A stretch of DNA of 64,000 nucleotides from Isoptericola luteus. GTDB lineage: Bacteria > Actinomycetota > Actinomycetes > Actinomycetales > Cellulomonadaceae. A program made the translations under genes and the position numbers. Positions 7,088 to 21,761 of the stretch are shown here, piece by piece. The notes below the pieces were generated by a model that saw nothing but the letters and a program-made list of their open reading frames with translations, was not told the origin of the DNA and made no database searches. Within the stretch, counting starts at the first letter, position 1. Each line of letters opens with the position of its first letter. The stretch covers positions 62,001 to 126,000 of the forward strand of contig NZ_JAIXCQ010000005.1 of NCBI RefSeq assembly GCF_020297055.1. The letters are read 5' to 3'.

Positions 7088-7148
7088 TCGCCGTCGTGCC
7101 CGTCGCGCTGAGCCCTGGATCACGGCCGTGCAACATTCTCCAGAATGA

Positions 7149-7168
7149 CATACCGGCCAGTCGGTTTT
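7149..7168. promoter_or_regulatory. TetR-type operator, copy 2
   Basis: CATACCGGCCAGTCGGTTTT: the left half matches the consensus fully and the right half in four of seven positions. Its 14-base core is identical to copy 1 in opposite orientation. It ends 39 bases before the ATP-binding protein start at 7208, where a repressor would block the promoter of the whole import operon. Confidence 0.65.
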
Positions 7169-7207: not shown

Positions 7208-7996
7208 ATGTCCCGCTCGACGACCCCCCTGACCGCCGCCGGCCCGAGGCCGGGCGCCGCTGCGCCCTCAGGTGCGACCCCGCGCCTGGAGGTGGAGGGC
7301 CTCACCGTCACGTTCGGTGGGCTCACCGCTCTCGACGACGTGGGGTTCGCCGTGGGCGACGGCGAGGTCGTCGCGCTCATCGGGCCCAACGGCGCAGGCA
7401 AGACGACCGTCTTCAACGTCGTCTGCGGCCTGGTGCGGCCGCGCGCGGGCAGCGTGCGGATCGACGGCCGGCCCGCCCCGGCGGCGACGTCGCGGCTCCA
7501 GGGGCATGGCGTCGCGCGCACCCTGCAGGGCCTGGGCCTGTTCAGCGGGATGACCGTGGCCGAGAACGTCCTCGTCCCGCTCTCCGGTCGTGAGCGCCGC
7601 AGCGAGGACGGTCGCGCCCTGGCCGCGGCGGCGCTGGAACGGCTCGACCTGCTCCACACGGCGGACGCCGTCGTCGACGCGCTGCCGTACCCGGAGCGCA
7701 AGCGGGTCGCCCTGGCCCGCGCCCTGGTGACGAACCCCCGGCTGCTGCTGCTCGACGAGCCGGCCGGCGGCCTCGGGGCCGAGGACATCGCGGGCCTCGC
7801 CCACGTCGTGCGCGGCGTCGTGGCGAGCGGCAGCTCCGTGCTCCTGGTGGAGCACCACGTCGACTTCGTCATGGAGGTCGCCGACCGCGTGGTCGTCCTG
7901 GACTTCGGGCGCGTGGTCGCGTGCGGCACGCCCGACGAGGTCCGGTCCGACCCTGCGGTCGAGGCCGCCTACCTCGGGCTGGAGGCCGCCCGATGA
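7208..7996 (+). CDS. livG: Liv-type ABC transporter ATP-binding protein (LivG class)
   Basis: A 262-residue ATPase of the branched-chain amino acid (HAAT) importer class. Walker A is GPNGAGKT near residue 63, Walker B is LLLLDEP followed by AGGL, and the switch His is in VEHHVDFV. The signature region reads LPYPERKRVALARAL, so the usual LSGGQ or YGxQR core is degenerate. ATG 7208 is preferred over ATG 7145 because AAAGAGGTG precedes it and because 7145 would place the operator inside the gene. It overlaps the next ATPase gene by ATGA. The substrate is unlikely to be an amino acid in this context; hydrophobic carboxylates or lactones are more plausible. Confidence 0.85.
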   Translation: MSRSTTPLTAAGPRPGAAAPSGATPRLEVEGLTVTFGGLTALDDVGFAVGDGEVVALIGPNGAGKTTVFNVVCGLVRPRAGSVRIDGRPAPAATSRLQGHGVARTLQGLGLFSGMTVAENVLVPLSGRERRSEDGRALAAAALERLDLLHTADAVVDALPYPERKRVALARALVTNPRLLLLDEPAGGLGAEDIAGLAHVVRGVVASGSSVLLVEHHVDFVMEVADRVVVLDFGRVVACGTPDEVRSDPAVEAAYLGLEAAR

Positions 7997-8712
7997 GCCC
8001 GGCGCTCGCCGTCGACGGCCTCGTCGTCGGGTACGCCGGCGCGCCGGTGGTGGAGGGTCTGACCCTCGACGTCGCACCGGGCGCCGTCGTCGCGCTCCTC
8101 GGTGCGAACGGTGCGGGCAAGACGACGGTGCTGCGCACCCTGTCCGGCCTGCTCACCCCGCGCGCGGGGCGCGTGCTGCTCGACGGCGCCGACCTCGCCG
8201 CCGTGCGCGTCGAGGACCGGGTGCGCCGCGGGCTCGCCCAGGTGCCCGAGGGGCGCAGCGTGGTCACCGAGCTCACCGTCGAGGAGAACCTCCAGCTCGG
8301 GGCGCTGTGGCGCTGTGCCGGGCGGGCCGAGCGACGGGCCGCCGTCGACGAGATGTACGCCCTGTTCGAGCCGCTGGCGCGGCGCCGCACCAGCGCGGGG
8401 CACCAGCTCTCCGGCGGCGAGCGCCAGATGCTCGCCCTGGCGCGCGCCCTGATCTCCCGACCGCGGGTGCTGCTGCTCGACGAGCCGTCGCTCGGCCTGG
8501 CCCCGCGCGTCGTGGCTCAGCTGTTCGGCACCCTGCGCGACGCGGCCGACGCCACCGGGCTCACCGTGCTGCTCGCGGAGCAGAACGTCACCAGCGCGCT
8601 GTCCATCGCGGACCGCGGTGTCGTCCTCTCCCTCGGGCAGGTCGTCGCCGACGCCCCGGCGGCGGACATCGCCGCCGACCCCGCCCTGCGTCACGCCTAC
8701 CTGGGCTTCTGA
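7993..8712 (+). CDS. livF: Liv-type ABC transporter ATP-binding protein (LivF class)
   Basis: A 239-residue ATPase with canonical motifs: Walker A GANGAGKT, signature LSGGERQ, Walker B VLLLDEP followed by SLGL, and the switch His replaced by Gln in LLAEQN, as is usual for LivF. It pairs with the LivG-class subunit to power import. The start overlaps the previous stop by four bases, and the permease gene follows after nine bases, with GAGAGGAA as its binding site. Confidence 0.88.
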   Translation: MSPALAVDGLVVGYAGAPVVEGLTLDVAPGAVVALLGANGAGKTTVLRTLSGLLTPRAGRVLLDGADLAAVRVEDRVRRGLAQVPEGRSVVTELTVEENLQLGALWRCAGRAERRAAVDEMYALFEPLARRRTSAGHQLSGGERQMLALARALISRPRVLLLDEPSLGLAPRVVAQLFGTLRDAADATGLTVLLAEQNVTSALSIADRGVVLSLGQVVADAPAADIAADPALRHAYLGF

Positions 8713-8721: not shown

Positions 8722-9600
8722 ATGGACCGCCTCGTCCTTCTCGTCTCGACCGGCGTCGCACGCGGCCTCGTGATCGCGCTCTTCGCCCTGTCGCTCGTCA
8801 TCATCTGGCGCGCCGCACGGATCGTGAACTTCGCCCAGGCGGCGATGGCGGTCGCGGCCGTCTACGTCGCCTTCGCCGTGCAGCAGGCCACCGGGTCCTA
8901 CGTCCTCGCGCTCCTGTCCGCGCTCGTCGTCGGGGCGCTGCTCGGCGTCGCCGTGGAACGGGGCCTCATGCGCCACGTCGCGGGGCGCACGCCCATGCCC
9001 GGCATGATCGTCGCGATCGGCCTGGTCATGGTGCTCCAGGCGCTGCTGGGCATCTTCTTCGGCCCGAAGCACCGGCCCATGACGCCGGTGCTCTCGGAGG
9101 CGCCGCTGTACGTGGGCGACGTCCCGGTGCTGTCCCGGTACGACCTGTTCGTGCTGCTCGTGGCCCTCGTGGTCGTCGTCGGGCTGGGGGTGCTGTTCAA
9201 CCGCTCCACCCTCGGGCTGCAGCTGCGGGCGTCGGCCGTCGCCCCGGAGGTGTCGCGCCTCCTCGGGGTGCGGGTGCCGCGCATGGTCACCATCGGCTGG
9301 ATGCTGTCGTCCGCGGTGGCGGCGCTCGCGGTGCTGCTCCTGGTGCCCACGGAGCTCGGCCTCAACGCCCACTCCGGGGACGTGCTGTTCGTGCACGCCT
9401 TCACGGTCGCCGTGCTCGGCGGCCTCGACTCGCCCGCGGGGGCGCTCGTGGGCGGCCTCGTCGTCGGCGTCCTCATCAGCCTCGTCACCGGGTACGCGTC
9501 GGCGGGCCTGGCGCCCCTGGCCGTGCTCGCCCTGCTCACCTGCGTGCTGCTCGTCCGCCCGGGCGGCATCTTCGCCACGAAGGAGGCCCGGACCGCATGA
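8722..9600 (+). CDS. livH: Liv-type ABC transporter permease (LivH class)
   Basis: A 292-residue integral membrane protein with about eight hydrophobic segments. It has the LivH-type start (GVARGLVIALFALSLVIIWR, then VNFAQAAMA) and the late cytoplasmic coupling region SAVAPEVSRLLGVRVPRMV. It forms half of the transmembrane channel. Its stop overlaps the LivM-class start at ATGA. Confidence 0.85.
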   Translation: MDRLVLLVSTGVARGLVIALFALSLVIIWRAARIVNFAQAAMAVAAVYVAFAVQQATGSYVLALLSALVVGALLGVAVERGLMRHVAGRTPMPGMIVAIGLVMVLQALLGIFFGPKHRPMTPVLSEAPLYVGDVPVLSRYDLFVLLVALVVVVGLGVLFNRSTLGLQLRASAVAPEVSRLLGVRVPRMVTIGWMLSSAVAALAVLLLVPTELGLNAHSGDVLFVHAFTVAVLGGLDSPAGALVGGLVVGVLISLVTGYASAGLAPLAVLALLTCVLLVRPGGIFATKEARTA

Positions 9601-10784
9601 CCCGGAGCCCTGCCCGTCCCGGGACCCGAGCCCCTCGGACCACCCGCGCCATCGTCGTCCGAGCCGTGCTGCTCACGCTGCTCGCGCTCGCCCTCACGTT
9701 CGCCCTGGACCCGTTCCGCAACTACCAGCTCGCCGTGATCGCCGCGACGTTCTGCGCGACGGCGGGCCTGACGCTCCTCGTCGGGCTCACCGGCCAGCTC
9801 TCCCTGGGTCACGCCGTGCTCATGGCCGCCGGCGGCTACGGGTACGCCCTCGTGGCGGGCCCGGCCGCCGAGGCCGGCCTGGGCGGCACCGCCCGGTTCG
9901 CCCTCGGCATCCTCGGTGCTCTGGTGCTGTCCGCGGCGGTCGGAGGGCTGCTGGGGCTCGCCGGGGCACGCCTGCGTGGCCCGTACCTCGCCGGCCTGAC
10001 CCTCGCCCTCGTGATCGCGCTGCCCGCGCTGACGACCCAGGTGCCCGGGCTCGGCAAGGACCAGGGGCTCGGCGTGCCGTTCGAGGCGGTGCCCGCGCCG
10101 CTGGCCGGCCTCATGGTCGTGGAGCAGTGGCACGCGTGGATCGCGGTGGTCGTGGCCGCGCTCGCCGTCACGCCCCTCGTCGTGCTGCGCTCCGGCCGCG
10201 CCGGACTGCGCATGCGCGCCACCCACGGCGACGAGGTCGCCGCCCGGCTGGCCGGCATCTCGCCGGCGCGCGTCAAGGTCGGCGCGTTCGTCGTGAGCGC
10301 CGTGGCCGCCGGCCTGGGTGGCGCCGTGCTCGCCGTCGTGACGCAGAGCGTCAGCCCCGGCCGGTACTCGCTGGCGTTCTCCCTGCTGCTCCTGGTCGCC
10401 GTCGTGGTGGGCGGGCTCGGGAGCATCGGGGGAGCGGCGGCGGGCGCCGCGCTCGTCGTGCTGCTGCCCTGGCTCGTGGAAGCCCTGACGTCCGCGGGCG
10501 GGCTGTCCGCCGACCTCGAGCAGCGGCTGTCCGGGAATCTCGCCCTCGCCGTGTTCGGCGCGCTCCTCGTCGCCGTGACCGTGGTGTGGCCGGGCGGGCT
10601 CGCCGCGGCCAGCGCCGGCCCGCGCGGCCGGCTGGCCCGCGCCCTGCGCCGAAGCCGTGCCGACGACGGGCCCGGCCCGACGTCCGACGCGGCACCTGCC
10701 CCGGCCTCCGACCCGACGTCCGACCAAGCCTCCTACCAAGCCCCCGACCAGACGCCCGACCCGCTACCGATCACAGAGAGGTGA
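9597..10784 (+). CDS. livM: Liv-type ABC transporter permease (LivM class) with long polar tail
   Basis: A 395-residue membrane protein. The family core, with LVGLTGQLSLGHAVLMAAGGY and the coupling segment RATHGDEVAARLAGIS, spans residues about 20-340. The last 45 residues form a polar Asp/Ser/Thr/Pro tail with near-repeats (ASDPTSDQASYQ, APDQTPDP) that is not part of the family and is probably disordered and cytoplasmic. Otherwise it is an ordinary LivM partner of the preceding LivH-class permease. Confidence 0.85.
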   Translation: MTRSPARPGTRAPRTTRAIVVRAVLLTLLALALTFALDPFRNYQLAVIAATFCATAGLTLLVGLTGQLSLGHAVLMAAGGYGYALVAGPAAEAGLGGTARFALGILGALVLSAAVGGLLGLAGARLRGPYLAGLTLALVIALPALTTQVPGLGKDQGLGVPFEAVPAPLAGLMVVEQWHAWIAVVVAALAVTPLVVLRSGRAGLRMRATHGDEVAARLAGISPARVKVGAFVVSAVAAGLGGAVLAVVTQSVSPGRYSLAFSLLLLVAVVVGGLGSIGGAAAGAALVVLLPWLVEALTSAGGLSADLEQRLSGNLALAVFGALLVAVTVVWPGGLAAASAGPRGRLARALRRSRADDGPGPTSDAAPAPASDPTSDQASYQAPDQTPDPLPITER

Positions 10785-10789: not shown

Positions 10790-12094
10790 ATGCGGAATCA
10801 CACGCCCGTCCCCACCCCCCAGCCCGGACGGTCCACGGCGCCGCCCGCGGTCCGGGCCACCGCCGCGGCCTCCGCCGCCGTCGTCGCGCTGACCCTGGCC
10901 GCGTGCAGCACGCCCGCCGCCGCGACGCCCGGCATCGACGACGACAGCGTCAAGGTCGGGTCGCACCAGCCCCTGACCGGGCCGGCGGCGGCCGGCTTCT
11001 CCTCGATCTCGGCCGCCACGAAGGCGTACTTCGCCTACGTCAACGACAACGGGGGGATCAACGGCCGCACGATCGACTACGTCGTCAAGGACGACGGCTA
11101 CAACCCCGCCACGACGCAGAGCGTCGTGCGCGAGCTCGTGCAGGAGGACAAGGTCTTCGCGATCCTCAACGGGCTGGGCACGCCCACCCACAGCTCGGTC
11201 CTGGACTACCTGGACCAGAACGGCGTGCCGGACCTGTTCGTGGCCTCCGGCAGCACCACCTGGAACCAGCCCGACGAGTACCCGGGCACCTTCGGGTTCA
11301 ACGCCGACTACGTCGTCGAGGGCGCCGCCCTGGCGCAGTACGCCCGCGACGAGGACCCCGACGCCGTCGTGTGCGTGCTGGGGCAGGACGACGACTTCGG
11401 CGAGACGTTCCTCGAGGGCGTCGAGCTCGCGCTCGGCGCGGACGGGGTGGCGAGCTACCAGACGTACACGACGTCGTCCGAGGACGTCACCGCTCAGCTC
11501 GGTGCGATGAAGGAGGCCGGCTGCGAGGTCAACCTGCTGGCCACCATCAACGGGTTCACGGCGATGGCGCTCGGCACCGCCGCGCAGATGGGCTGGTCCC
11601 CGCAGTGGTACGCCTCGTCGTCGGGCGGCGACTACCCGACGCTCGTCGGCTTCCTGGGCGAGGAGGTCGGCCCGGCGCTCCTCGAGGGCTTCGTGAGCGC
11701 GAACTACCTCCAGAACAGCCCGGGCAGCGACTGGTACGAGCTGTTCCAGCAGATCAACGACGAGTACAACGACGGCGCGCCCTTCGACGGGAACACCGTG
11801 TACGGGATGAGCGTCGGCTACCTGTTCGCCGAGGCGCTCGCCAAGGCGGGCGACGACCCGACCCGCGAGTCGCTCACCGAGGCGGTGGAGTCCGGCGCGC
11901 TCGTCGGCAACGGCATCCTGCCGCTGACCTTCGGCGCGGACGACCACGCCGCGTACGACGGGGTGGGCATCGCCGTCGTCACGGGCGGGGTGCAGGACTT
12001 CGTCGGCGCCACCTACCGGGTGGACGGCGACGCCGTCGCGGCGGCCGAGCCCGCCCCCGTGCCGCTGGAGAACGAGGGCATCCCGACCCCCTGA
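10790..12094 (+). CDS. livK: ABC transporter substrate-binding lipoprotein (Liv type)
   Basis: A 434-residue type I periplasmic-binding-fold receptor. An unusually long charged N-terminus (about 22 residues) precedes the hydrophobic signal and the lipobox LAAC, giving lipid-modified Cys39 and membrane anchoring. The mature part starts with DSVKVGSHQPLTGPAA and has the conserved INGRTIDYVVKDDGYNP segment of this family. GAGAGGTGA lies before ATG 10790. It delivers substrate to the four preceding subunits. Receptors of this type in actinobacterial lipid and aromatic catabolic clusters often bind carboxylates rather than amino acids; the ligand is not readable here. Confidence 0.88.
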   Translation: MRNHTPVPTPQPGRSTAPPAVRATAAASAAVVALTLAACSTPAAATPGIDDDSVKVGSHQPLTGPAAAGFSSISAATKAYFAYVNDNGGINGRTIDYVVKDDGYNPATTQSVVRELVQEDKVFAILNGLGTPTHSSVLDYLDQNGVPDLFVASGSTTWNQPDEYPGTFGFNADYVVEGAALAQYARDEDPDAVVCVLGQDDDFGETFLEGVELALGADGVASYQTYTTSSEDVTAQLGAMKEAGCEVNLLATINGFTAMALGTAAQMGWSPQWYASSSGGDYPTLVGFLGEEVGPALLEGFVSANYLQNSPGSDWYELFQQINDEYNDGAPFDGNTVYGMSVGYLFAEALAKAGDDPTRESLTEAVESGALVGNGILPLTFGADDHAAYDGVGIAVVTGGVQDFVGATYRVDGDAVAAAEPAPVPLENEGIPTP

Positions 12095-12097: not shown

Positions 12098-12246
12098 GCG
12101 GCGAGACAGAGAGGCGAGCCCACGAGATAGAGAGGGCACGGACCGCACCGGTGCGGTCCGTGCCCTCCGCCCGCCCCCCCCCCCCCCCCCCGGGGGCGCC
12201 CCCCCCCCCCCCCCCCCCCCGCCCCCCCGCCTCTCTATCTCGCCGC
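12098..12246. repeat. Nested inverted repeats enclosing two long poly-C tracts
   Basis: Outer arms 12098-12116 and 12228-12246 match in 18 of 19 positions (GCGGCGAGATAGAGAGGCG type) and include the TAG stop of the fadD gene. Inside lie the perfect palindrome at 12133-12166 and C-runs of 18 (12174-12191) and 22 (12199-12220) bases separated by a short G/C spacer. This lies between convergent genes. The homopolymers could reflect assembly or basecalling trouble across a strong hairpin, so the exact length should not be trusted. Confidence 0.75.
12133..12166. terminator. Perfect palindromic terminator between convergent operons
   Basis: A 34-base perfect palindrome with 16-base arms starting AGGGCACGGACCGCAC, 38 bases after the binding-protein stop. 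It would form an equally strong hairpin in either direction and probably ends both the importer operon and the fadD operon. Confidence 0.7.
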
Positions 12247-13830
12247 AGAGGGGGCGAACTGGTCCTGCAGGGAGCGCTTGAGGATCTTGCCGCTCGGGCC
12301 GACCGGCAGCTGGTCCACCACGTGGACGACGCGCGGGTACTTGAACGCCGCGACGCGTTCGCGCACGTACTCGCGCAGCGCCTCGCCGTCGACGGAGCGG
12401 CCGTCCCTGGCCACGACGGCCGCGTGGATCTCCTGGCCGTGGATCGCGTCGTCGAGCCCGAACACGGCCGCCATCGCGACGTCGGGGTGGTCGACCAGCA
12501 CCGACTCGACCTCCGTCGGGTACACGTTGTAGCCGTTGCGGATGATCATGTCCTTCTTGCGGTCGACGATCGTGATGATGCCCTCGGCGTCGACGGTGCC
12601 CAGGTCGCCCGTGCGGAACCAGCCGTCGTGCACGACGGCTGCCGACGCGTCCGGCCGGCCCAGATAGCCCTTCATGAGGTTGTGGCCCCGCACCACGATC
12701 TCGCCGAGCGTGCCCGGCTCGTCGAGCAGGTCGACGCGCCGCTCCTCGAGCGGGTCGGCGACGGCCACGTCCACCCCCCACATGCGGCGGCCCACGGTGC
12801 CGGGCCGGATCGGCTCGCCCAGCACGTTGAACGACACCGACGGCGAGGTCTCGGTGAGCCCGTACCCCTCGTGCACCTCGGCGCCGTAAGCCTCCGAGAA
12901 GGCCTCGAGCACCGCCGTCGGCAGGGCCGCGCCACCGGAGACGGCGTACCGCAACGGTGGGCGCTCGGCCGTGCGGCCGGCCGCCTCGATCATCCCCACG
13001 AACATGGTGGGCACCGCGGTGAACACCGTCGCCCGGTGGGCCACGAGCAGCTTCAGGGCCAGGTCCGGGTCGAACTGGGGCAGCAGGACGACGGAGGCGC
13101 CCACCCGGAAGGCCATGTTCATCACGGCCATCTGGCCGAACGCGTGGAACAGCGGCAGCCCGCCGAACACGACGTCGTGCGGCTTGAGGTCAAACGAGTC
13201 GATGAGGGAGCAGTGCACCTGCTCGACGGCCGCCAGGTGCGACCCGACCGCGCCCTTCGGGGTGCCTGTGGTGCCGCTCGTGTAAAGGATGGTCGCCGCG
13301 TCGGTGGGGTGCACCGGGACGTGCCGCACCAGGGGCTCGGCGGCGGCCGCCTCGTCCTCCAGGCGCGGCAGGTCGGGACCGCCGGCGCTCACGGGCGGCG
13401 CGAGCACCGTGACGAGCGGGACGCCCGCGGCACGGGCCGCGGGCAGCGCCTCGCCGAGCAGCGGTGCCGCGACGACGACGAGGTCGGCGCCGCTGTCGCG
13501 CAGCACGAACTCGATCTCGCGCGCCTTGAACAGCAGGTGCACCGGGACGACGACGGCGCCGAGCGCCTGGGCGGCGTAGAAGGCGCGCGGGAAGTCCGGC
13601 ACGTTGGGCACGACGACCGCGACCCGGTCGCCCCGGCCGATGCCGCGGGCCGCCAGGGCGCCGGCGTAGGCGCGGGTCTGCTCCCACAGCTCGCCGTACC
13701 GGGTGGTGGCGCCCATGAAGTGCAGGGCGGGGCGCTCGGGGGAGCGCGTCGCCGTCTCGGCCAGGATGCTGGCCAGGGACAGCGTCCCGAAGCCGGGGCC
13801 GTCGACGGCCTCGTCGGGGCGGTGCGTCAT
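12235..13830 (-). CDS. Acyl-CoA synthetase / fatty-acid-CoA ligase (FadD type)
   Basis: A 531-residue ANL-superfamily ligase that activates a carboxylate to acyl-AMP and then acyl-CoA. Motifs in order: P-loop LYTSGTTGTPKGA near residue 185, GYGLTETSP, DGWFRTGDLG, the hinge DRKKDMIIRNGYNVYP and the C-terminal catalytic Lys in LPVGPSGKILKR. It is the last gene of the leftward operon behind operator copy 3, after the ACAD11-type dehydrogenase and the kinase, 58 bases from the dehydrogenase gene. In this setting it should perform the entry step of the pathway, possibly on a hydroxyacid. Chain-length preference cannot be told. Confidence 0.88.
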   Translation of the reverse strand: MTHRPDEAVDGPGFGTLSLASILAETATRSPERPALHFMGATTRYGELWEQTRAYAGALAARGIGRGDRVAVVVPNVPDFPRAFYAAQALGAVVVPVHLLFKAREIEFVLRDSGADLVVVAAPLLGEALPAARAAGVPLVTVLAPPVSAGGPDLPRLEDEAAAAEPLVRHVPVHPTDAATILYTSGTTGTPKGAVGSHLAAVEQVHCSLIDSFDLKPHDVVFGGLPLFHAFGQMAVMNMAFRVGASVVLLPQFDPDLALKLLVAHRATVFTAVPTMFVGMIEAAGRTAERPPLRYAVSGGAALPTAVLEAFSEAYGAEVHEGYGLTETSPSVSFNVLGEPIRPGTVGRRMWGVDVAVADPLEERRVDLLDEPGTLGEIVVRGHNLMKGYLGRPDASAAVVHDGWFRTGDLGTVDAEGIITIVDRKKDMIIRNGYNVYPTEVESVLVDHPDVAMAAVFGLDDAIHGQEIHAAVVARDGRSVDGEALREYVRERVAAFKYPRVVHVVDQLPVGPSGKILKRSLQDQFAPSAAR

Positions 13831-13888
13831 GTCGGGTCCTCTCGTCGTCGTTGATCGTGGACGGATGCCTGCTGGGGTGGCGCGGTCG

Positions 13889-15112
13889 TTACCGCGGTGC
13901 GCGGAGCTGGGCCTTGCCGAGGGAGCTCAGGTGGACCTCGTCGGGGCCGTCCGCGAGGCGCAGCGACCGCGCCCCGGCGAACATCTCCGCCAGCGGCTGG
14001 TCGCCCGAGACGCCGGCGGCGCCGAAGATCTGGATGACGCGGTCGAGGATCGTCTGGACGGCGCGGGGCACGGCGATCTTGATGGCCTGGATCTCGGTCA
14101 TCGCCGCCCGGTTGCCCACGGTGTCCATGAGCCAGGCGGTCTTGAGCACGAGGAGCCGCAGCGACTCGAGCTCGACGCGCGCGTTCGCGACCCACTCGCG
14201 CACCACGCCCTGGTCCGCGAGGGGCCGGCCGAACGCGACCCGGGAGCGGGCGCGCTCGCCCGCGAGCGCCAGGGCGCGCTCCGCCGTGCCGATCGCCCGC
14301 ATGCAGTGGTGGATCCGGCCTGGCCCGAGCCGTGCCTGCGCGAGGGCGAACCCCTCGCCGGCGCCGCCCAGCATCGACGACGCCGGGACGCGGACGTCGT
14401 CGAACACGATCTCGGCGTGCCCGCCGTGGTCGCGGTCGTCGTAGCCGAACACCGTCAGCGGGCGCACGATCGTCACGCCCGGGGTGTCGCGCGGCACCAG
14501 CACCATGGACTGCTGCCGGTGCCGGGGCGCATCCGGGTCGGTCTTGCCCATGACGATGAGCAGCTGCGCGTCGGGGCTCATGGCGCCCGTGGACCACCAC
14601 TTGCGGCCGGAGATCACGAGGTCGTCGCCGTCGCGCCGGATCCGGGTACCGATCTGGGTGGCGTCCGACGACGCGACGTCGGGCTCGGTCATGGAGAACG
14701 CCGAGCGGATGCGGGCGTCCAGCAGGGGGGCCAGCCACCGCTCGCGCTGCTCGGGGGTGCCGAAGTGGGCGAGGAGCTCCATGTTCCCGGTGTCGGGGGC
14801 CGCGCAGTTGAAGGCGACCGGGGCCAGCCGGGTGCTCCAGCCCGTGAGCTCGGCCAGGGGGGCGTACTGGAGGTTCGTCAGGCCGGCGCCGTACGGCGCG
14901 GTCGGACCGCCGGCGGGCAGGAAGAGGTTCCACAGGCCCTGCGCGCGGGCGGCGGAGCGGAGCTCGTCGACGACGGGGCGGAACGTCCAGGCCTCCGGTG
15001 CGGCCGCGAGCTGGGCGTCGAGGACGGGTTCGGCGGGCAGGACCCGCTCGTGCAGGAACGTGCGCACCTGCTCCGTGAGCTCGGTGGTGCGGGCGTCGGG
15101 GGCGAAGTCCAT
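13889..15112 (-). CDS. ACAD10/11-type acyl-CoA dehydrogenase family enzyme
   Basis: A 407-residue flavoprotein with close similarity to the dehydrogenase half of mammalian ACAD11: GLWNLFLP, CAAPDTGNMELL, FSMTEPDVASSDAT, GRKWWSTGAM, RLGPGRIHHCMR and RLADGPDEVHLS are all conserved. In ACAD10/11 and in Pseudomonas LvaC this enzyme class acts with a partner kinase: the kinase makes a 4-phosphoacyl-CoA and the ACAD-like enzyme eliminates phosphate to give an enoyl-CoA. Here the partner kinase gene is immediately upstream (one base between its stop codon and this start), so the same two-step chemistry is the best prediction. Simple alpha,beta-dehydrogenation is the alternative. Confidence 0.85.
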   Translation of the reverse strand: MDFAPDARTTELTEQVRTFLHERVLPAEPVLDAQLAAAPEAWTFRPVVDELRSAARAQGLWNLFLPAGGPTAPYGAGLTNLQYAPLAELTGWSTRLAPVAFNCAAPDTGNMELLAHFGTPEQRERWLAPLLDARIRSAFSMTEPDVASSDATQIGTRIRRDGDDLVISGRKWWSTGAMSPDAQLLIVMGKTDPDAPRHRQQSMVLVPRDTPGVTIVRPLTVFGYDDRDHGGHAEIVFDDVRVPASSMLGGAGEGFALAQARLGPGRIHHCMRAIGTAERALALAGERARSRVAFGRPLADQGVVREWVANARVELESLRLLVLKTAWLMDTVGNRAAMTEIQAIKIAVPRAVQTILDRVIQIFGAAGVSGDQPLAEMFAGARSLRLADGPDEVHLSSLGKAQLRAPR

Positions 15113-15113
15113 G

Positions 15114-16205
15114 TCAGACCACCGTTCCGGTCGGGTGCGAAGGAGGGGTCACGGTGCCGGCCGCGCGGGCACGTGCGAGGCCGTCCGCGGCGAGCGGTGC
15201 GACGAGCTCGCCGATGCGGTCGAACCCGTCCCCGACCGTCTCGCCCGCGCGGTAGCGGAAGTGGATGCCCTCGAGGATCACGGCGAGCTTGTACGCGGCG
15301 AAGGCGCGGTACCAGCCGAGGTCGGGCAGCGCGGTCCCGGACCGCGCGGCGTACGTGTCCGCGAGCTCGTCGAACTCGGGGTAGCCGGCGCCGGGCACGA
15401 CCGCGCTCGTGGTGGCGTGGCCCTCGGTGATGGCGTTGATGTCCCAGTACAGGCCCAGCATCCCGAGGTCGACCAGGGGGTCGCCGAGGGTGGCCATCTC
15501 CCAGTCGAGGACGGCGGCGACGTACGGGGCGTGGGCCGGGCCGGCGACGATCGCGTTGTCGAGGCGGAAGTCGCCGTGCACGATGCCGGTGCGGCCGCCG
15601 TCGCGCCCGGCGGGCAGCCGCGCGGCCAGGGCCTCCTGCAGCTCGTCGAGGACGGGCAGGTCCCGGGACCGGGAGGCGTCGTACTGCCGCCGCCACGTGG
15701 ACAGCTGGCGGTCCAGGTAGCCGGCGGGCCGGCCGAAGTCGGCGAGGCCGACGGCGGCCGGGTCGACGGCGTGCAGGTCGGCGAGCGTCTCGGCGAGGGA
15801 GAGGCCGAGGGCGTGCAGTCCGTCGGCGGTGTACGCGGCGTTCTGCCGTGGTCGGGCGAGGACGGTGCCGTCGACGTGCTCCATGACGAAGAACACGGTG
15901 CCGGTCACGTCGCCGGCCGTGGAGTCGTCGACGACGTCGATGGTGCGCGGGACGGGGACCGGGCTGCCGGCGAGCGCCGAGATGACCCGGTGCTCGCGGG
16001 TCATGTCGTGGGCGCTGGACAGCACGTGGCCGAGCGGCGGCCGGCGCAGCACGAGGGGCGCCCGGGCGCCGTCGACGCGGTAGGTGAGGTTGCTCCGTCC
16101 CCCGGCGATCACCTGGGCGGACAGGTCGCCGTCCGCGAGGTCCGGGTGGGCGCCGGCCAGCCAGCGGGTCAGGCCGGCGAGGTCCAGGCCGGGCACTGCG
16201 GTCAT
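15114..16205 (-). CDS. APH-family phosphotransferase, predicted hydroxyacyl-CoA kinase (ACAD10/11 kinase-like)
   Basis: A 363-residue aminoglycoside-phosphotransferase-fold kinase. The ATP-site segment GGRSNLTYRV and LVLRRPPLG with the conserved Arg-Arg-Pro-Pro, the catalytic loop IVHGDFRLDNAIV and the metal-binding segment VLDWEMATLGDPLVDLG are all present and match the kinase half of ACAD11 and LvaA. Antibiotic modification is therefore unlikely; phosphorylation of a hydroxyacyl-CoA is the family expectation. ATG 16205 is chosen from homology, giving a protein with no extra N-terminus. It is the first gene after operator copy 3 (16248-16267), 42 bases away, and is followed without a gap by its ACAD partner. 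Confidence 0.82.
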   Translation of the reverse strand: MTAVPGLDLAGLTRWLAGAHPDLADGDLSAQVIAGGRSNLTYRVDGARAPLVLRRPPLGHVLSSAHDMTREHRVISALAGSPVPVPRTIDVVDDSTAGDVTGTVFFVMEHVDGTVLARPRQNAAYTADGLHALGLSLAETLADLHAVDPAAVGLADFGRPAGYLDRQLSTWRRQYDASRSRDLPVLDELQEALAARLPAGRDGGRTGIVHGDFRLDNAIVAGPAHAPYVAAVLDWEMATLGDPLVDLGMLGLYWDINAITEGHATTSAVVPGAGYPEFDELADTYAARSGTALPDLGWYRAFAAYKLAVILEGIHFRYRAGETVGDGFDRIGELVAPLAADGLARARAAGTVTPPSHPTGTVV

Positions 16206-16247
16206 CGTCGACCTGCTTTCGTCGTCACGTCGTCGGGATGTGGCGAG

Positions 16248-16267
16248 CATACCGCGCGGTCGGTATG
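16248..16267. promoter_or_regulatory. TetR-type operator, copy 3
   Basis: CATACCGCGCGGTCGGTATG has perfect seven-base arms CATACCG/CGGTATG. It lies between the thioesterase stop (16334) and the kinase start (16205), so the kinase-ACAD-ligase genes have their own repressible promoter within the leftward gene series. Confidence 0.75.
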
Positions 16268-16333
16268 TTAGCGACCGTGCTCGCCCCCGCGTTCCCGCCC
16301 GTGACTCCGCCCGCGACCCCGCCGAGGGGTCGC

Positions 16334-16741
16334 TCAGTCGGTGAGCTGCGTCGTGACGGCGGCCCTCAGCCGGTCCGGGACCGGCACCGGGCGCCGGGTC
16401 GCGTCGTCCACGAAGACGTGCGTGAACCGGCCGAGCGCGATCGGCTCCGCCGGGTGGTCGGCGCGCAGGATGTGCAGGTCCCACGTGAGGCTGGTGCGCC
16501 CAAGCTTTGTGACGCCGATCGCGACCTCCAGCTGCTCCGGGTAGGACGCCGGCGCACGGAAGTCGCACGACGAGGCCACGCACAGCCCGATGACGTCGCC
16601 GGCCGGGTCCAGGCCGCCGTGGCGGATCATCCAGGCGTTGACGGCCGTGTCCATCGCCTCGTAGTAGACGGTGTTGTTGACGTGGCCGTACTGGTCGTTG
16701 TCGTTCCAGCGCAGCGGGAACGGGTGACGGGCGCGGGGCAT
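16334..16741 (-). CDS. Acyl-CoA thioesterase, 4HBT hotdog family
   Basis: A 135-residue single hotdog domain. The catalytic signature RWNDNDQYGHVNNTVYYEAM, with the Asp and His-Val-Asn-Asn core, is near residue 11. Such enzymes hydrolyse acyl-CoA or 4-hydroxybenzoyl-CoA-type thioesters in the cytosol and often serve to recover CoA. The gene lies 48 bases after the QsdR-like TetR gene, in the same direction, and probably shares its promoter; operator copy 3 separates it from the kinase operon. Confidence 0.8.
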   Translation of the reverse strand: MPRARHPFPLRWNDNDQYGHVNNTVYYEAMDTAVNAWMIRHGGLDPAGDVIGLCVASSCDFRAPASYPEQLEVAIGVTKLGRTSLTWDLHILRADHPAEPIALGRFTHVFVDDATRRPVPVPDRLRAAVTTQLTD

Positions 16742-16789
16742 CGGGTCTCCTTCGACTCGGTGAGGTGGGCGGGCGAGGGCTCAGGCGGC

Positions 16790-17491
16790 TCAGGCCACGC
16801 GCAGCAGGTGGCGGAACGCCGTGCGGGCGGCCTCACCGCTGGGGTCCTCGCCGGCGATGAGGTCGGCGTAGGTGAAGGACTCCGAGACCCGGACGAGCAG
16901 GTAGGCAAGCGTCGGCGGGTCGATGGCGCCGTCGAACGGGGCGTCGCCGAGGTGTGTGCGCACCAGCCACTCGGCGGTCGCCGTGTAGCGGCGCTGGATC
17001 GGGCTGGCCTTCGTGGTCAGCAGCCGCAGGGCCCGGGCCGGCTCGCGGCGCAGGAAGTCACGGAAGTAGTCGGCGGCGATGAGGTCGGTGGCGAAGTGCG
17101 TGAGCAGCGCGGCGACGCGCTCCGCGCCGCCCAGGTGGGCGGTCGCGCGATCGGCCTGCCCCAGCGTGGGCACGGCGAGGGACCACAGCACCTCGGCCAG
17201 GAGGTCGTCGCGGTTGCCGACCCACCGGAACACCGACGTGCGGTCCACGCCCAGCGACGACGCGAGCCCGCCCATGTCGATACGGCCGCCGGCGACGAAC
17301 GTCTCCCGCGCCAGGTCGTAGGCGCGGCGGGCGTCGGGGTGCGCCCCGTCGGCCAGCCGGGCGGACAGCCGCGTCGGCGCCGCGCGCAGCCCGACGGCGC
17401 CGATGTCGGTGCCGTGCGTAGTGCTGTCCAAGGCGCCGGCGGACGAAGAGCTGGGCGAGGTGGCGCTGAACGGCGATCCCGGCGGTGGCAT
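16790..17491 (-). CDS. QsdR-like TetR family regulator
   Basis: A 233-residue TetR-fold protein with an approximately 50-residue N-terminal extension. The DNA-binding part starts at DARRAYDLARETF and continues GRIDMGGLASSLGVDRTSVFRWVGNRDDLL and LWSLAVPT, the pattern of QsdR-type regulators; Rhodococcus QsdR controls gamma-lactone catabolism. A TAGGCT box ends seven bases before ATG 17491, so the mRNA is probably leaderless. A 26-base palindrome at 17523-17548 sits in the divergent promoter shared with the acyl-CoA dehydrogenase gene at 17616, the natural place for its operator. Confidence 0.75.
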   Translation of the reverse strand: MPPPGSPFSATSPSSSSAGALDSTTHGTDIGAVGLRAAPTRLSARLADGAHPDARRAYDLARETFVAGGRIDMGGLASSLGVDRTSVFRWVGNRDDLLAEVLWSLAVPTLGQADRATAHLGGAERVAALLTHFATDLIAADYFRDFLRREPARALRLLTTKASPIQRRYTATAEWLVRTHLGDAPFDGAIDPPTLAYLLVRVSESFTYADLIAGEDPSGEAARTAFRHLLRVA

Positions 17492-17522
17492 GTCCGCAGC
17501 CTAGCGCCGAAGCACCCGAGGG

Positions 17523-17548
17523 GTGCAACATAATCAAAGATGATGCAC
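17523..17548. promoter_or_regulatory. Palindromic operator in divergent promoter, probably for the QsdR-like regulator
   Basis: Imperfect palindrome with arms GTGCAACAT and ATGATGCAC (eight of nine arm positions complementary) in the 124-base gap between the regulator and the second acyl-CoA dehydrogenase. It differs from the CATACCG-type sites, so two regulators appear to share control of the cluster. Confidence 0.55.
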
Positions 17549-17615
17549 ACTGGCCCGCAGCCAGCGCACCGCCGCGCACCAGCGCTGCGGGATCGACGAC
17601 GATCGGAGCACAGCG

Positions 17616-18938
17616 ATGACCACGACACCCGTCACGACGACGGTGGCACAGGGCACCCGGCCGGCCGCCGGGACCACTACCGGGACCAGTACCGGGACCA
17701 GTACCGGGACCAGTACCGGGACCAGTACCGGGACCAGTACCGGGACCAGTACCGAGACCGGGACGGACCCCGTCCTGGACGCCGACTTCTATGGCTTCCA
17801 GAACCTGCTGACGGCCCAGGAGCAGGACAGGATCCTCGCCGTCCGCGAGTTCATGGAGCGCGAGGTGCGGCCCGTCGCGGACGACTACTGGGAGCGCTCG
17901 GACTGCCCGGTGCACCTGTTCAAGCCGTTCGCCGAGCTCGGCACGGTGGGCGCGGCCTGGTCGGAGACCGCCGGCTTCGATACCTCCGCGGTGTTCCGGG
18001 GCTGGGTCGGCATGGAGCTGGCCCGGGTCGACTCCTCGTTCTGCACGTTCATCGGCGTCTCCAGCGGCCTGGCGATGAGCTCGATCGGCCTGGGCGGCTC
18101 GGCCGAGCAGCGCGAGCAGTGGCTGCCCCCGATGGCGCGCGGCGACCTCATCGGGGCGTTCGGCCTCACGGAGCCGCTCTCCGGCTCCGACACCGCCAAG
18201 GGCCTGCGGACCACCGCGACCCGGCACGGCGACACCTGGGTGCTCGACGGCGCCAAGCGCTGGATCGGCAACGCCACCTTCGCCGACGTCGTCGTCATCT
18301 GGGCGAAAGACACCGCGGACCAGCAGATGAAGGGCTTCCTCGTCCGCAAGGGCACGCCTGGGTTCACCGCCACCAAGATCGAGCGCAAGCAGTCGCTGCG
18401 CATCGTGCAGAACGCGGACATCGTGCTCGACGGCGTCGAGGTCGCCGAGGCGGACCGGCTGCAGGGGATCGACAGCTTCCGCGACGTCGCGAAGGTGCTG
18501 CGGGTGACGCGCGACGGCGTGGCGTGGCAGTCGCTGGGCACCATGATCGGCGCCTACGAGGCGGCCGTGCGGTACACCAAGCAGCGCGAGCAGTTCGGGC
18601 GCCCGATCGCCAGCTACCAGCTCGTCCAGGACAGGCTCGCCACCTGCCTGGCCAACATCACGGCGAGCCTCGCGGTGTGCGTGCGCGTGTCACAGCTGCA
18701 GGACGAGGGCACGCAGACCGACGCGCAGGCGGCGCTGGCGAAGTCGTTCGTCACGACCCGGATGCGCGAGACCGTCGCGCTGTGCCGCGAGTCCCTCGGC
18801 GGCAACGGCATCCAGCTCGACCACGGTGTGGCCCGCTACTTCGCGGACGCCGAGGCCGTCTACACGTTCGAGGGCACGCGCGACATGAACAACCTCATCG
18901 TCGGCCGGGAGATCACCGGTCACGCGGCGTTCGTCTGA
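17616..18938 (+). CDS. Acyl-CoA dehydrogenase (glutaryl-CoA dehydrogenase-like) with Gly-Thr-Ser repeat N-terminus
   Basis: A 440-residue flavoprotein dehydrogenase. The catalytic core starts near residue 50 (DPVLDADFYGFQNLL) and shows FGLTEPLSGSD, GAKRWIGNA and the late YTFEGTRDMNNLIVGREITG; the Glu of FEGT occupies the active-site base position of GCDH and related enzymes. The N-terminus carries GTST repeats from a 12-base tandem repeat. No in-frame ATG lies between the repeat and the core, so the repeat is probably translated. The gene is divergent from the QsdR-like regulator and 89 bases before the thiolase gene, suggesting alpha,beta-oxidation just before thiolysis. Confidence 0.85.
   Translation: MTTTPVTTTVAQGTRPAAGTTTGTSTGTSTGTSTGTSTGTSTGTSTETGTDPVLDADFYGFQNLLTAQEQDRILAVREFMEREVRPVADDYWERSDCPVHLFKPFAELGTVGAAWSETAGFDTSAVFRGWVGMELARVDSSFCTFIGVSSGLAMSSIGLGGSAEQREQWLPPMARGDLIGAFGLTEPLSGSDTAKGLRTTATRHGDTWVLDGAKRWIGNATFADVVVIWAKDTADQQMKGFLVRKGTPGFTATKIERKQSLRIVQNADIVLDGVEVAEADRLQGIDSFRDVAKVLRVTRDGVAWQSLGTMIGAYEAAVRYTKQREQFGRPIASYQLVQDRLATCLANITASLAVCVRVSQLQDEGTQTDAQAALAKSFVTTRMRETVALCRESLGGNGIQLDHGVARYFADAEAVYTFEGTRDMNNLIVGREITGHAAFV
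17682..17753 (+). repeat. Six perfect 12-base tandem repeats inside a coding sequence
   Basis: The unit GGGACCAGTACC occurs six times without error, with a degenerate copy before it (17670-17681). It encodes GTST repeats and preserves the frame whatever the copy number. Slippage here would change only the length of a flexible N-terminal tail. Confidence 0.9.
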
Positions 18939-19027
18939 GCGGCACGCCGGCCCCGCCCACGGGGACGGTGACAGCACCGCGAGACAGCACCGCGACCACC
19001 CACGCTGCACGAACCGAAGGAGACATC

Positions 19028-20251
19028 ATGACCGAGGCGTACATCGTCGCCACCGCGCGATCGCCGATCGGCCGCGCGTACAAGGGGTCGCTGGCCGGCG
19101 CGCGCGCCGACGACCTCGCCGCCCAGATGGTGCAGGCCGCCGTGGATGCGGTACCCGGGCTCGACCCGGCCCGCATCGACGACCTGATGCTGGGGTGCGG
19201 GCTGCCCGGAGGGCGCCAGGGCATGAACATGGCCCGCGTCGTGGCTGTGCTGGCGGGCTGGGACTCCGTGCCCGGTACCACCGTGACGCGCTACTGCTCG
19301 TCCAGCCTGCAGACCACGCGGATGGCGTTCCACGCCATCAAGGCGGGCGAGGGCGACGTGTTCGTCTCGGCCGGCGCGGAGTCGGTCAGCGGCATGGCGG
19401 TCGGCTCCAGCGACGACATCCCCGGGGCCGTCCTCACCAACCCGCGGTTCGCCGGCGCCACGGAGCGCACCGTGGAGCGGGCGGAGGGCGGGGCCCCGGT
19501 CTGGCACGACCCGCGGGCCGACGGCCTGCTGCCCGACCCGTACATCGCGATGGGCCAGACGGCGGAGAACGTCGCCGCCCTGCACGGCGTCACGCGGGCC
19601 GAGCAGGACGAGTTCGCCGCCCGCAGCCAGCAGCGTGCGGCCAAGGCGATCGCCGACGGGTTCTGGGCGCGCGACATCACACCCGTGCGGCTCGACGACG
19701 GCACGGTCGTGACGGCCGACGACGGCCCGCGCCCTGACACGACGGTCGAGAGGCTCGCGTCGCTCGAGCCAGTGTTCCGGCCCGACGGCACGGTGACGGC
19801 GGGCAATGCGTGCCCGCTCAACGACGGCGCGGCCGCCGTCGTCGTGGTCTCCGAGCGGGTCGTGGACGAGCTGGGCCTGACCCCGCTCGCGCGCATCGTG
19901 TCCACCGGGGTGACGGGCCTGTCGCCGGAGATCATGGGCCTCGGCCCCGTCGAGGCCAGCCGGCAGGCCCTCGCCCGCGCCGGGCTGACCATCGAGGACA
20001 TGGGACTGGTGGAGATCAACGAGGCCTTCGCGGCCCAGGTGATCCCGTCGGCCCGCGAGCTGGGCGTCGACCCGGAGCGGCTCAACGTGCACGGCGGCGC
20101 CATCGCCGTCGGGCACCCGTTCGGCATGACCGGCGCGCGCATCACCTCGACGCTGATCAACGGGCTCGAGGTCACCGACCGGCGCTACGGGCTGGAGACC
20201 ATGTGCGTCGGGGGAGGCCAGGGCATGGCCCTCGTCCTCGAGCGCCCCTGA
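19028..20251 (+). CDS. Thiolase (acetyl-CoA C-acyltransferase)
   Basis: A 407-residue thiolase that cleaves 3-ketoacyl-CoA with CoA. The nucleophile Cys90 is in TRYCSSSLQT; the His of GGAIAVGHPFGMTG and the second Cys of ETMCVGGGQGMA complete the active site; NEAFAAQ is also present. ATG 19028 follows GAAGGAGACATC. It lies downstream of the GCDH-like gene in the same direction and ends at a 38-base inverted repeat. It should carry out the last step of the chain-shortening pathway. Confidence 0.9.
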   Translation: MTEAYIVATARSPIGRAYKGSLAGARADDLAAQMVQAAVDAVPGLDPARIDDLMLGCGLPGGRQGMNMARVVAVLAGWDSVPGTTVTRYCSSSLQTTRMAFHAIKAGEGDVFVSAGAESVSGMAVGSSDDIPGAVLTNPRFAGATERTVERAEGGAPVWHDPRADGLLPDPYIAMGQTAENVAALHGVTRAEQDEFAARSQQRAAKAIADGFWARDITPVRLDDGTVVTADDGPRPDTTVERLASLEPVFRPDGTVTAGNACPLNDGAAAVVVVSERVVDELGLTPLARIVSTGVTGLSPEIMGLGPVEASRQALARAGLTIEDMGLVEINEAFAAQVIPSARELGVDPERLNVHGGAIAVGHPFGMTGARITSTLINGLEVTDRRYGLETMCVGGGQGMALVLERP

Positions 20252-20356
20252 CGCCGAGATAGAGACCCCACCCCGCCGAGATAGAGAGCCGCCGGGGCCG
20301 AGATAGAGACCCCACCCCGCTCTCTATCTCGGCGGGGTGGGGTCTCTCTCTCGGCG
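20252..20356. repeat. 38-base inverted repeat with internal direct repeats, between convergent genes
   Basis: Arms 20252-20289 and 20319-20356 are reverse complements in 37 of 38 positions. Each contains CCGAGATAGAGA twice with CCCCACCCCGC between, and the 29-base loop holds a further direct copy. It lies between the thiolase and MaoC stops. It could end transcription from both sides. The CGAGATAGAGA word also occurs in the repeat at 12098-12246. Confidence 0.85.
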
Positions 20357-20372
20357 AGGAGGGGTGGGCGTC

Positions 20373-20888
20373 TCAGGCGGCCGGGACGTACAGCGCGAGG
20401 GTCTGCGCGACGAGCGCCGGCTTGTCGGCGCCCTCGATCTCGACGGTGACGGTCGAGGCGAGGCGTACGCCCTGGGCGACGTCCTGCGCGCCGGTGATCT
20501 CGGTCGTGGCGCGCACACGCGACCCGGCGGGCACGGTGGTCAGGAAGCGCACCTTGTCCAGGCCGTAGTTCATCGCCATCGCGACGCCGCCCACCTCGAC
20601 CAGCGACGACGCCAGGTGGGGGAGCAGGGACAGGGTGAGGAACCCGTGCGCGACGGTGGTCCCGAACGGGCCCGACGCCGCGCGCTCGGCGTCGACGTGG
20701 ATCCACTGGTGGTCCTCGGTGGCGTCGGCGAAGGCGTCGATGCGCGCCTGGTCGACGGTGAACCACTCGCCGGTGGCACGCTGCCCGACAGCGTCCGCGA
20801 GCGCGGCGGGGGAGGCGACGCGGACCGGCGTCCCGGTGGTCGCGGGTCCCGTGATGGAGGGCTCGGTGGTCGTGGGCTCGGTGCTCAT
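20373..20888 (-). CDS. MaoC-like (R)-specific enoyl-CoA hydratase
   Basis: A 171-residue hotdog-fold protein. The hydratase-2 motif is seen as FADATEDHQWIHVDAERA followed by GPFGTTVAHGFLTLSLLP, with the catalytic Asp and His. It would hydrate 2-enoyl-CoA to (R)-3-hydroxyacyl-CoA, the substrate of the FabG-type gene just upstream. ATG 20888 overlaps that gene's stop by four bases. The first 30 residues are a Thr/Pro-rich linker-like stretch that is not part of the domain. Confidence 0.87.
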   Translation of the reverse strand: MSTEPTTTEPSITGPATTGTPVRVASPAALADAVGQRATGEWFTVDQARIDAFADATEDHQWIHVDAERAASGPFGTTVAHGFLTLSLLPHLASSLVEVGGVAMAMNYGLDKVRFLTTVPAGSRVRATTEITGAQDVAQGVRLASTVTVEIEGADKPALVAQTLALYVPAA

Positions 20889-21649
20889 GCCTTCGGCCCG
20901 CCTGCCACGTACAGGACCTGCCCGGAGACGAACGAGGCCTCGTCGGAGGTGAAGAACGACACCGCGGCGGCGATGTCCTCGGGCTTGCCGGCCCGCCCGA
21001 CGGGTACCTCCTTGGCGGCAGCCGCGAGGAAGTCGTCGAGCGAGACGCCGACGCGCTCGGCGGTCGCGGCGATCATGTCCGTGGCGATGACGCCGGGCGC
21101 GACGGCGTTGGCCGTGATCCCGAACTTGCCGAGCTCGATCGCGAGCGTCTTGGTGAAGCCCTGCATACCGGCCTTCGCGGCGGAGTAGTTCGCCTGGCCG
21201 CGGTTGCCGAGCGCGGACGTGCTCGACAGGTTGACGACGCGCCCCCAGCCGGCGGAGACCATGTGGGACTGCACCGCCCGGGTGACGAGGAACGCTCCGC
21301 GCAGGTGCACGCCGAGCACGGCGTCCCAGTCGGCCTCGGTCATCTTGAACAGCAGGTTGTCGCGCAGGATGCCGGCGTTGTTGACGAGGATCGTGGGGGC
21401 GCCGAGCTCGTCGGCCACGCGGGCCACGGCGTCGGCGACGGCGTCGGCGTCGGTGACGTCCACCCCGAGGCCGAGCGCCCGGCCGCCGTCCGCGGTGATG
21501 CTCGCCGCGGTCTCGGCGGCCTGCTCGGCGAGGAGGTCGAGCACGGCGACGGCGTGCCCGTCGGCGGCCAGGCGGCGGGCGGTCGCGGCGCCGATGCCGC
21601 GAGCCCCTCCGGTGACGATCGCGGTACGGGGTGCGGTGGTGCGGGTCAT
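20885..21649 (-). CDS. FabG-type 3-oxoacyl reductase / 3-hydroxyacyl-CoA dehydrogenase (SDR)
   Basis: A 254-residue SDR. TGGARGIG lies near residue 14, NNAGILRDNLLFKM is the FabG-like segment after NNAG, and the catalytic Ser (NLSSTSA) and Tyr-x-x-x-Lys (YSAAK) are present. FabG-type SDRs paired with MaoC proteins interconvert (R)-3-hydroxyacyl- and 3-ketoacyl-CoA. It is the first gene of a two-gene operon behind operator copy 4 (21742-21761), 92 bases upstream, so it belongs to the same proposed regulon as the importer and the kinase operon. Confidence 0.88.
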   Translation of the reverse strand: MTRTTAPRTAIVTGGARGIGAATARRLAADGHAVAVLDLLAEQAAETAASITADGGRALGLGVDVTDADAVADAVARVADELGAPTILVNNAGILRDNLLFKMTEADWDAVLGVHLRGAFLVTRAVQSHMVSAGWGRVVNLSSTSALGNRGQANYSAAKAGMQGFTKTLAIELGKFGITANAVAPGVIATDMIAATAERVGVSLDDFLAAAAKEVPVGRAGKPEDIAAAVSFFTSDEASFVSGQVLYVAGGPKA

Positions 21650-21741: not shown

Positions 21742-21761
21742 CATACCGACCACGCGGTATG
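21742..21761. promoter_or_regulatory. TetR-type operator, copy 4
   Basis: CATACCGACCACGCGGTATG has perfect seven-base arms, identical to those of copy 3. It controls the FabG-MaoC operon in the leftward direction. Confidence 0.75.

Follow-up and report, generated by a model that had tools for sequence, protein, structure and literature searches.

A predicted ACAD11-type kinase-dehydrogenase gene cluster with an importer and a shared TetR-type operator in Isoptericola luteus

We analyzed a 64-kb stretch of the Isoptericola luteus genome (contig NZ_JAIXCQ010000005.1, positions 62,001 to 126,000; the window), in which a kinase gene is followed by a gene for an acyl-CoA dehydrogenase (ACAD). The data suggest that the pair belongs to an island for the breakdown of 4-oxygenated acyl substrates, which would use the ACAD11-type kinase-dehydrogenase route under the control of two TetR-type regulators (TetR1 and TetR2) and whose distribution among actinobacteria would reflect transfer or repeated loss. 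The probability of this explanation as a whole was estimated at about 0.67. A first-pass annotation had proposed import and breakdown of 4-hydroxyacids or lactones; the 4-hydroxyacid chemistry stood as the best reading, while the lactone part was weak, with no lactonase recognised in the cluster and the argument from QsdR failing. Two elements are new beyond that annotation: a palindrome shared by several operons, and TetR1 (4539-5114, outside its coordinates) as the probable repressor.

Identity of the kinase and the dehydrogenase

The kinase matched the Pfam APH family (E = 1.6e-49). Its PDB relatives by sequence were 9o56 (5e-50), 3dxp (3e-47) and ACAD11 (8v3v, 4e-47), the ACAD11 kinase domain ranking third behind two bacterial kinases without assigned function; the nearest named relative was from Isoptericola sp. 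4D.3 (83% identical). The ACAD was closest to human ACAD11 (2wbi, 1e-126), a Mycobacterium abscessus protein (4hr3, 7e-126) and mouse ACAD11 (8v3u, 2e-125). Its ACAD11-type matches spanned 1e-126 to 1e-124, and the first ordinary ACAD appeared only at 2.5e-37. All four ACAD11 motifs quoted by the first-pass annotation were found in the translation.

According to the available text of PMC12440821, the mouse ACAD11 kinase uses D220, N225 and R176, and in the ACAD domain R626, H634 and R637 bind phosphate and D753 is catalytic. These residues were mapped by hand via alignments, with chain positions equal to the paper's numbers minus one; R86 of the paper was not exactly placeable, and the Arg next to the helix-C Glu was taken instead. 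Some aligned rows came from duplicate genomes, and a few were weak best hits. In the kinase, D212, N217, E71 and R70 were kept in 101/101 rows and R166 in 100/101. Among 96 ACAD rows, R261, H269 and R272 were kept in 95/95 rows having a residue, and the catalytic D388, which replaces the usual Glu, in 94/94. The negative control, a second dehydrogenase of the cluster (ACAD2), carries V, V, Q and E at these four positions. P66 of the ACAD corresponds to human P463, described in part of PMC11342911 as a conserved Pro that widens the active site; four relatives differ and ACAD2 also has Pro there, so this position does not discriminate.

The ACAD model (pLDDT 83.5) superposed on 4hr3, 8v3u and 2wbi with a root-mean-square deviation of 2.2-2.4 Å at 50-51% identity, and the first fold of another type was 7w0j (3.6 Å, 25% identity). 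The structural comparison proposed by the first-pass annotation thus came out in favor of ACAD11 for the ACAD, where ACAD11 entries led, and agreed only broadly for the kinase. Taken together, the PDB ranking, the residues and the fold of the ACAD model bear out its assignment of the pair to the ACAD10/11 or LvaA/LvaC type, and conversion of 4-hydroxyacyl-CoA to 4-phosphoacyl-CoA and then to enoyl-CoA is the best reading of the two sequences. Bacterial proteins of the LvaA/LvaC type perform the kinase and ACAD steps, and bacterial orthologues substituted ACAD10 domains in vitro, as reported in the accessible passages of PMC11342911.

Relatives were represented by 80 named loci, the best of 518, with 10-kb flanks, and the frequencies given here hold for this set and not for all bacteria. 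The ACAD directly followed the kinase in 74/80 loci; in the window, 1 base lies between the kinase stop and the ACAD start, and an acyl-CoA ligase gene comes next.

Operators and candidate repressors

The gap ahead of the kinase contains ATACCGCGCGGTCGGTAT. The palindrome ATACCG-N6-CGGTAT was detected at four sites in the window at up to two mismatches, compared with a mean of 0.48 and a largest count of 2 in 100 shuffled windows. Each site lies 40-93 bases ahead of the first gene of its operon: SDR1-TetR1-QOR-SDR2, LivGFHM-SBP, kinase-ACAD-ligase or SDR3-MaoC (SDR, short-chain dehydrogenase; QOR, oxidoreductase; SBP, substrate-binding protein). The 3.97-Mb genome has four places at up to one mismatch, three of them in the cluster. 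At up to two mismatches it has 29, compared with 11 for the reversed pattern, so two-mismatch sites, of which the SDR1 operator is one, mean little alone. A mismatch-free copy was also found elsewhere (G000:C22:253987; L122:7988-8005), next to where a gene for a PucR-type regulator begins. A promoter and terminator scan was uninformative.

In the relatives, sites were counted at up to one mismatch from -300 to +60 of the tblastn start, where 20 block shuffles expect 0.00-0.10. The site stood ahead of the kinase in 44/80 loci (0.05 in shuffles) and ahead of LivG in 25/31 (0.00). Lower counts were obtained for SDR1 (10/38), TetR1 (10/48), ACAD2 (4/31), the thioesterase TE (4/30) and SDR3 (3/42), and none for QOR (0/35), thiolase (0/30), SBP (0/29) and ligase (0/48). 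A zinc alcohol dehydrogenase gene, of a family present in 14/80 loci, sits between the site and SDR3 in 8 of 14 hand-inspected loci (e.g., L044:3245-4360). This intervening gene, an explanation found after the count, may account for the low SDR3 figure; the window has no room for it, because the operator is 93 bases from SDR3. The palindrome thus precedes both kinase and importer, in relatives as well, which argues for a single predicted regulon.

TetR1, whose gene lies in one of the four operons, probably binds these sites. Its DNA-binding region is almost invariant among 15 aligned proteins from Isoptericola to Streptomyces, and in Streptacidiphilus, among others, TetR1 and the kinase are divergent around one site. 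Among 49 distant loci, at up to two mismatches, the kinase-upstream site was present in 31/33 with TetR1 and 1/16 without; the two TetR1 loci that break this rule, L089 and L098, have a site ahead of a neighboring gene. The same test on seven other cluster genes gave no link for six and a negative one for SDR1 (SDR2 was present in two loci and the ligase in one). Across all 80 loci, with a site counted at up to one mismatch, 45 had TetR1 and a site, 5 TetR1 only, 14 a site only and 16 neither. PDB relatives of TetR1 were 3dcf, 3vpr and KstR2 (4w97), and its ligand is presumably an acyl-CoA, given the relatedness to KstR2, although its top NCBIfam match, a butyrolactone-receptor family at half the cut-off, speaks against this.

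A further comparison is PaaR of Burkholderia cenocepacia, a TetR protein that represses phenylacetate genes and has the operator core ACCGACCGGTCGGT (PMC2770484, in the text available). Some relatives, such as L061, have this core in their TetR1-type sites as well. The targets differ: PaaR governs phenylacetate genes, and here no gene for a phenylacetate oxygenase was recognised, only a MaoC gene that matched the PaaZ model far under the cut-off.

TetR2 had a single PDB match at E ≤ 0.001, QsdR (4za6, 1.8e-13). Its candidate palindrome, TGCANCAT-N8-ATGNTGCA, had one genome match with fewer than two mismatches, between TetR2 and ACAD2. A three-mismatch copy overlaps the TetR1-type site ahead of LivG, and copies with up to three mismatches occurred in 4/40 LivG promoters, duplicates included (0.15 expected). 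The kinase-ACAD-ligase promoter has no TetR2-type site and carries the different, TetR1-linked operator; QsdR-based control of the kinase, which the first-pass annotation would imply, is not supported by this evidence.

At up to one mismatch, the TetR2-type site was present in 16 of the 17 loci with TetR2 (exact in 9/17) and in 0/63 without. ACAD2 promoters were compared in 29 loci at up to two mismatches: those with TetR2 had the TetR2-type site in 15/16 and the TetR1-type site in none, and those without had the TetR1-type site in 10/13 and the TetR2-type site in none. This pattern suggests a swap of regulator at the ACAD2 promoter, through few events only, because the 13 loci without TetR2 include 10 of Glycomyces and 2 of Myceligenerans.

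Cluster layout and distribution

The features are listed in Table 1. The kinase, ACAD, ligase, TE, TetR2, ACAD2, thiolase, MaoC, SDR3 and Liv-type importer genes were all located where the first-pass annotation had placed them (Pfam and PDB matches), and the cluster reaches further left than its start, to about 3720. The matches to named families are, as far as sequence comparison goes, family-level similarity and not chance. The cluster genes profiled (Pfam) include two TetR genes but no other regulator, and in particular no sigma54-type LvaR. The top NCBIfam match of SDR2 was 4-hydroxycyclohexanecarboxylate dehydrogenase, under cut-off.

Table 1. Predicted genes and operator sites of the cluster (window positions)
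Feature	Position	Strand	Description
TetR1-type operator	3720..3737		2 mismatches; ahead of SDR1-TetR1-QOR-SDR2
SDR1	3784..4527	+	Short-chain dehydrogenase; closest solved structure DHRS4
TetR1	4539..5114	+	TetR_C_24 family; probable (predicted) repressor of regulon
QOR	5258..6247	+	Zinc-binding-dehydrogenase/PIG3-like oxidoreductase
SDR2	6293..7036	+	Closest solved structures Rv2002 and 3-alpha,20-beta-hydroxysteroid dehydrogenase
TetR2-type site	7129..7152		Degenerate, 3 mismatches; overlaps TetR1-type operator at 7150
TetR1-type operator	7150..7167		1 mismatch; ahead of Liv importer
LivG	7208..7996	+	LivG-type ABC ATPase
LivF	7993..8712	+	LivF-type ABC ATPase
LivH	8722..9600	+	LivH-type permease
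LivM	9597..10784	+	LivM-type permease; start tentative
SBP	10790..12094	+	Liv-type substrate-binding protein
Ligase	12235..13830	-	Acyl-CoA ligase (AMP-binding)
ACAD	13889..15112	-	Predicted ACAD11/LvaC-type phosphoacyl-CoA dehydrogenase, 407 aa
Kinase	15114..16205	-	Predicted ACAD11/LvaA-type 4-hydroxyacyl-CoA kinase, 363 aa
TetR1-type operator	16249..16266		0 mismatches; ahead of kinase-ACAD-ligase
TE	16334..16741	-	4HBT thioesterase
TetR2	16790..17491	-	QsdR-like (TetR_C_36)
TetR2-type operator	17524..17547		TGCANCAT-N8-ATGNTGCA; in TetR2/ACAD2 gap
ACAD2	17616..18938	+	Ordinary FadE-type acyl-CoA dehydrogenase; Glu at catalytic position
Thiolase	19052..20251	+	True start slightly upstream, tentative
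MaoC	20373..20888	-	MaoC-type enoyl-CoA hydratase
SDR3	20885..21649	-	FabG-type 3-hydroxyacyl-CoA dehydrogenase; MaoC follows
TetR1-type operator	21743..21760		0 mismatches; ahead of SDR3-MaoC

Elsewhere in the window are a gene like IMS-domain Y-family polymerases and, after it, a DNA polymerase III alpha gene (22115-28031), which we take to resemble the ImuB-DnaE2 mutagenesis pair, a RIO-domain kinase gene (29199-29924) and, outside the cluster, a metallo-beta-lactamase-fold gene (30310-31134).

Genomes of Isoptericola, Krasilnikoviella, Promicromonospora, Agromyces, Nesterenkonia, Cellulomonas, Glycomyces and Phytomonospora carry most of the 18 genes in a changed order. The link between importer and kinase drawn in the first-pass annotation was strengthened by the shared operator and by the SBP gene, which in 15/80 loci immediately precedes the kinase in the same orientation (gap of 31-140 bases by tblastn ends); importer and kinase appear to share an operon in Glycomyces. 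In the tree-distant Allonocardiopsis (L081) and Actinomadura (L116) loci, genes of a Liv-type importer adjoin those for TetR1 and the kinase, and sites (up to two mismatches) lie ahead of LivG and the kinase, which supports the importer-kinase link.

In the family of the window, the kinase was detected in 21/101 genomes (E ≤ 1e-20), 18 of them, including the window's own, at ≥59% identity, and two genomes of the same genus were without it; in the class, it was detected in 161/296 genomes (E ≤ 1e-60). A supported branch of the kinase tree unites 21 Micrococcales rows with ten rows of Glycomycetales and one of Micromonosporales, a grouping that fits transfer without proving it. In Saccharopolyspora (L089:9333-12332), HAD hydrolase, kinase and ACAD11-type genes stand in a row with a TetR1-type site in front, matching the HAD-kinase-ACAD domain order of ACAD10.

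Proposed pathway, alternatives and related systems

In the proposed pathway, the Liv-type importer would take up an acid and the ligase would form its CoA ester, SDR1 and SDR2 probably interconverting 4-oxo and 4-hydroxy forms. The kinase would phosphorylate the 4-hydroxyl, and the ACAD, using FAD without net oxidation, would expel phosphate to give a 2-enoyl-CoA; both steps have been shown for homologues and are predicted here from the conserved residues. MaoC would then hydrate, SDR3 oxidize and thiolase cleave, with ACAD2 serving later rounds. The complete route to beta-oxidation claimed in the first-pass annotation was upheld on paper, the gene set sufficing up to thiolysis. To judge from the operators, TetR1 would repress the importer, kinase, SDR1 and SDR3-MaoC operons via ATACCG-N6-CGGTAT until released, probably by a pathway acyl-CoA, and TetR2 would separately control TetR2-TE and ACAD2-thiolase. 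The substrate would be a 4-hydroxy or 4-oxo acid, its identity and chain length being a matter of inference; the presence of SDR1 and SDR2 makes the two kinds of acid equally likely as the external substrate. The closest solved relative of the SBP (4n03, E = 8e-19) gave no ligand clue, nor did a literature search.

Several observations weigh against this explanation. The kinase model (pLDDT 88.6) had 3dxp, Rv3168 and 25-hydroxysteroid kinase as its nearest folds, with ACAD11 sixth (249 columns), and the ACAD model fitted the ACAD11 entry 8v3v at 3.7 Å only. SDR2 resembles hydroxysteroid dehydrogenases, and the top NCBIfam match of TetR1 was the butyrolactone-receptor family ScbR (72.9 bits, with the cut-off at 150). 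TetR1 was missing in 14/59 loci with a site at up to one mismatch, perhaps where the 10-kb flank ends, and 5/50 TetR1 loci lacked such a site. After correction for kinship the TetR1-site link was non-significant (two independent pairs on supported branches, seven on all branches; sign test p = 1), and the TetR2-site counts are raw, with kinship ignored. In the 21-kb Actinomadura locus (L116), importer and kinase were present and no ACAD11-type gene was recognised.

Gamma-lactones hydrolyse to 4-hydroxyacids, which was counted for an alternative that we consider unlikely, namely catabolism of gamma-lactones or acyl-homoserine lactones under QsdR-like control. It draws on the distant likeness of TetR2 to QsdR and the faint likeness of TetR1 to ScbR; TetR1 is closer to KstR2 (4e-16) than to the A-factor receptor homologue CprB (1e-8) in the PDB search. 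In Rhodococcus, QsdR governs a lactonase and an acyl-CoA ligase (PMC6262395, in the portion available). Like the qsd operon (QsdR, QsdA, QsdC), the cluster has a QsdR-like regulator divergent from a catabolic gene, and it has a ligase, but no lactonase was recognised in it (Pfam), the full TetR2 operator is at neither the ligase nor the kinase promoter, and TetR2 was present in 17/80 loci only. Nor was a lactonase recognised in the 30 gene families recurring in ≥5/80 loci within 8 kb of the kinase, a set from which some genes are missing, as the gene caller found the kinase in 74/80 loci only, and in which one family (6 loci; L091:18839-20050) had no Pfam match.

A levulinate-like route from a 4-oxoacid through ligase, SDR reduction, kinase and ACAD is a tentative possibility, and it would specify the substrate of the 4-oxygenated acyl pathway, not oppose it. 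In the Pseudomonas putida lva operon, the kinase (LvaA) likewise lies beside the ACAD (LvaC), with an SDR (LvaD) that reduces levulinyl-CoA and a CoA ligase (LvaE), and the same chemistry is inferred (PMC6692424, in the text available). An operator ahead of SDR1, with SDR2 downstream, fits such a route, although two SDRs plus QOR exceed its needs. The regulators also differ, TetR-type here and sigma54-type (LvaR) there, as do the transporters, a Liv ABC importer against an acetate-symporter homologue (same passages of PMC6692424), and MaoC, SDR and thiolase genes lie within the cluster.

It is improbable that the kinase acts on a bulky alcohol, for example the side chain of a steroid. 25-Hydroxysteroid kinase structures ranked 3-5 in the fold search, ahead of ACAD11, and SDR2 is closest to Rv2002 and a hydroxysteroid dehydrogenase among solved structures; the authors of the 25-hydroxysteroid kinase study see similarity to putative actinobacterial phosphotransferases (PMC8449060, available part). 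By sequence, however, this kinase (2e-14) stood far behind ACAD11 (4e-47), a ranking on which identity with it was rejected, leaving a minor rival, and the neighboring ACAD carries the phosphate-binding residues. Slightly less probable still is ordinary degradation of branched-chain amino acids or fatty acids with the kinase as a bystander: a Liv transporter and generic beta-oxidation enzymes are present, but the tight and recurrent pairing of kinase and ACAD and the diagnostic ACAD residues argue against it.

Mammalian ACAD10 and ACAD11, whose chemistry was assigned in papers of 2024 and 2025, have homologous kinase and ACAD parts with the phosphate-site and catalytic residues kept, but they are one fused chain, whereas the cluster has two separate proteins in an operon. 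A literature search turned up no description of such an actinobacterial cluster, which is no proof of absence. We give even odds to the view that the island is a portable actinobacterial unit: a TetR repressor of the PaaR/KstR2 kind, sensing a CoA intermediate, would co-control a dedicated ABC importer and the ACAD11-type pair, and in some lineages a second, QsdR-like repressor would have taken over the beta-oxidation branch by operator replacement.

To these known systems the cluster adds an importer and a predicted repressor with its operator, a possible biosensor, and it makes an exchange of regulators at a single promoter open to testing. If such a portable unit exists, it would provide an operator-defined regulon and a candidate sensor for ACAD11-type metabolism, a prediction that applies to genomes with the kinase plus TetR1 and its site.

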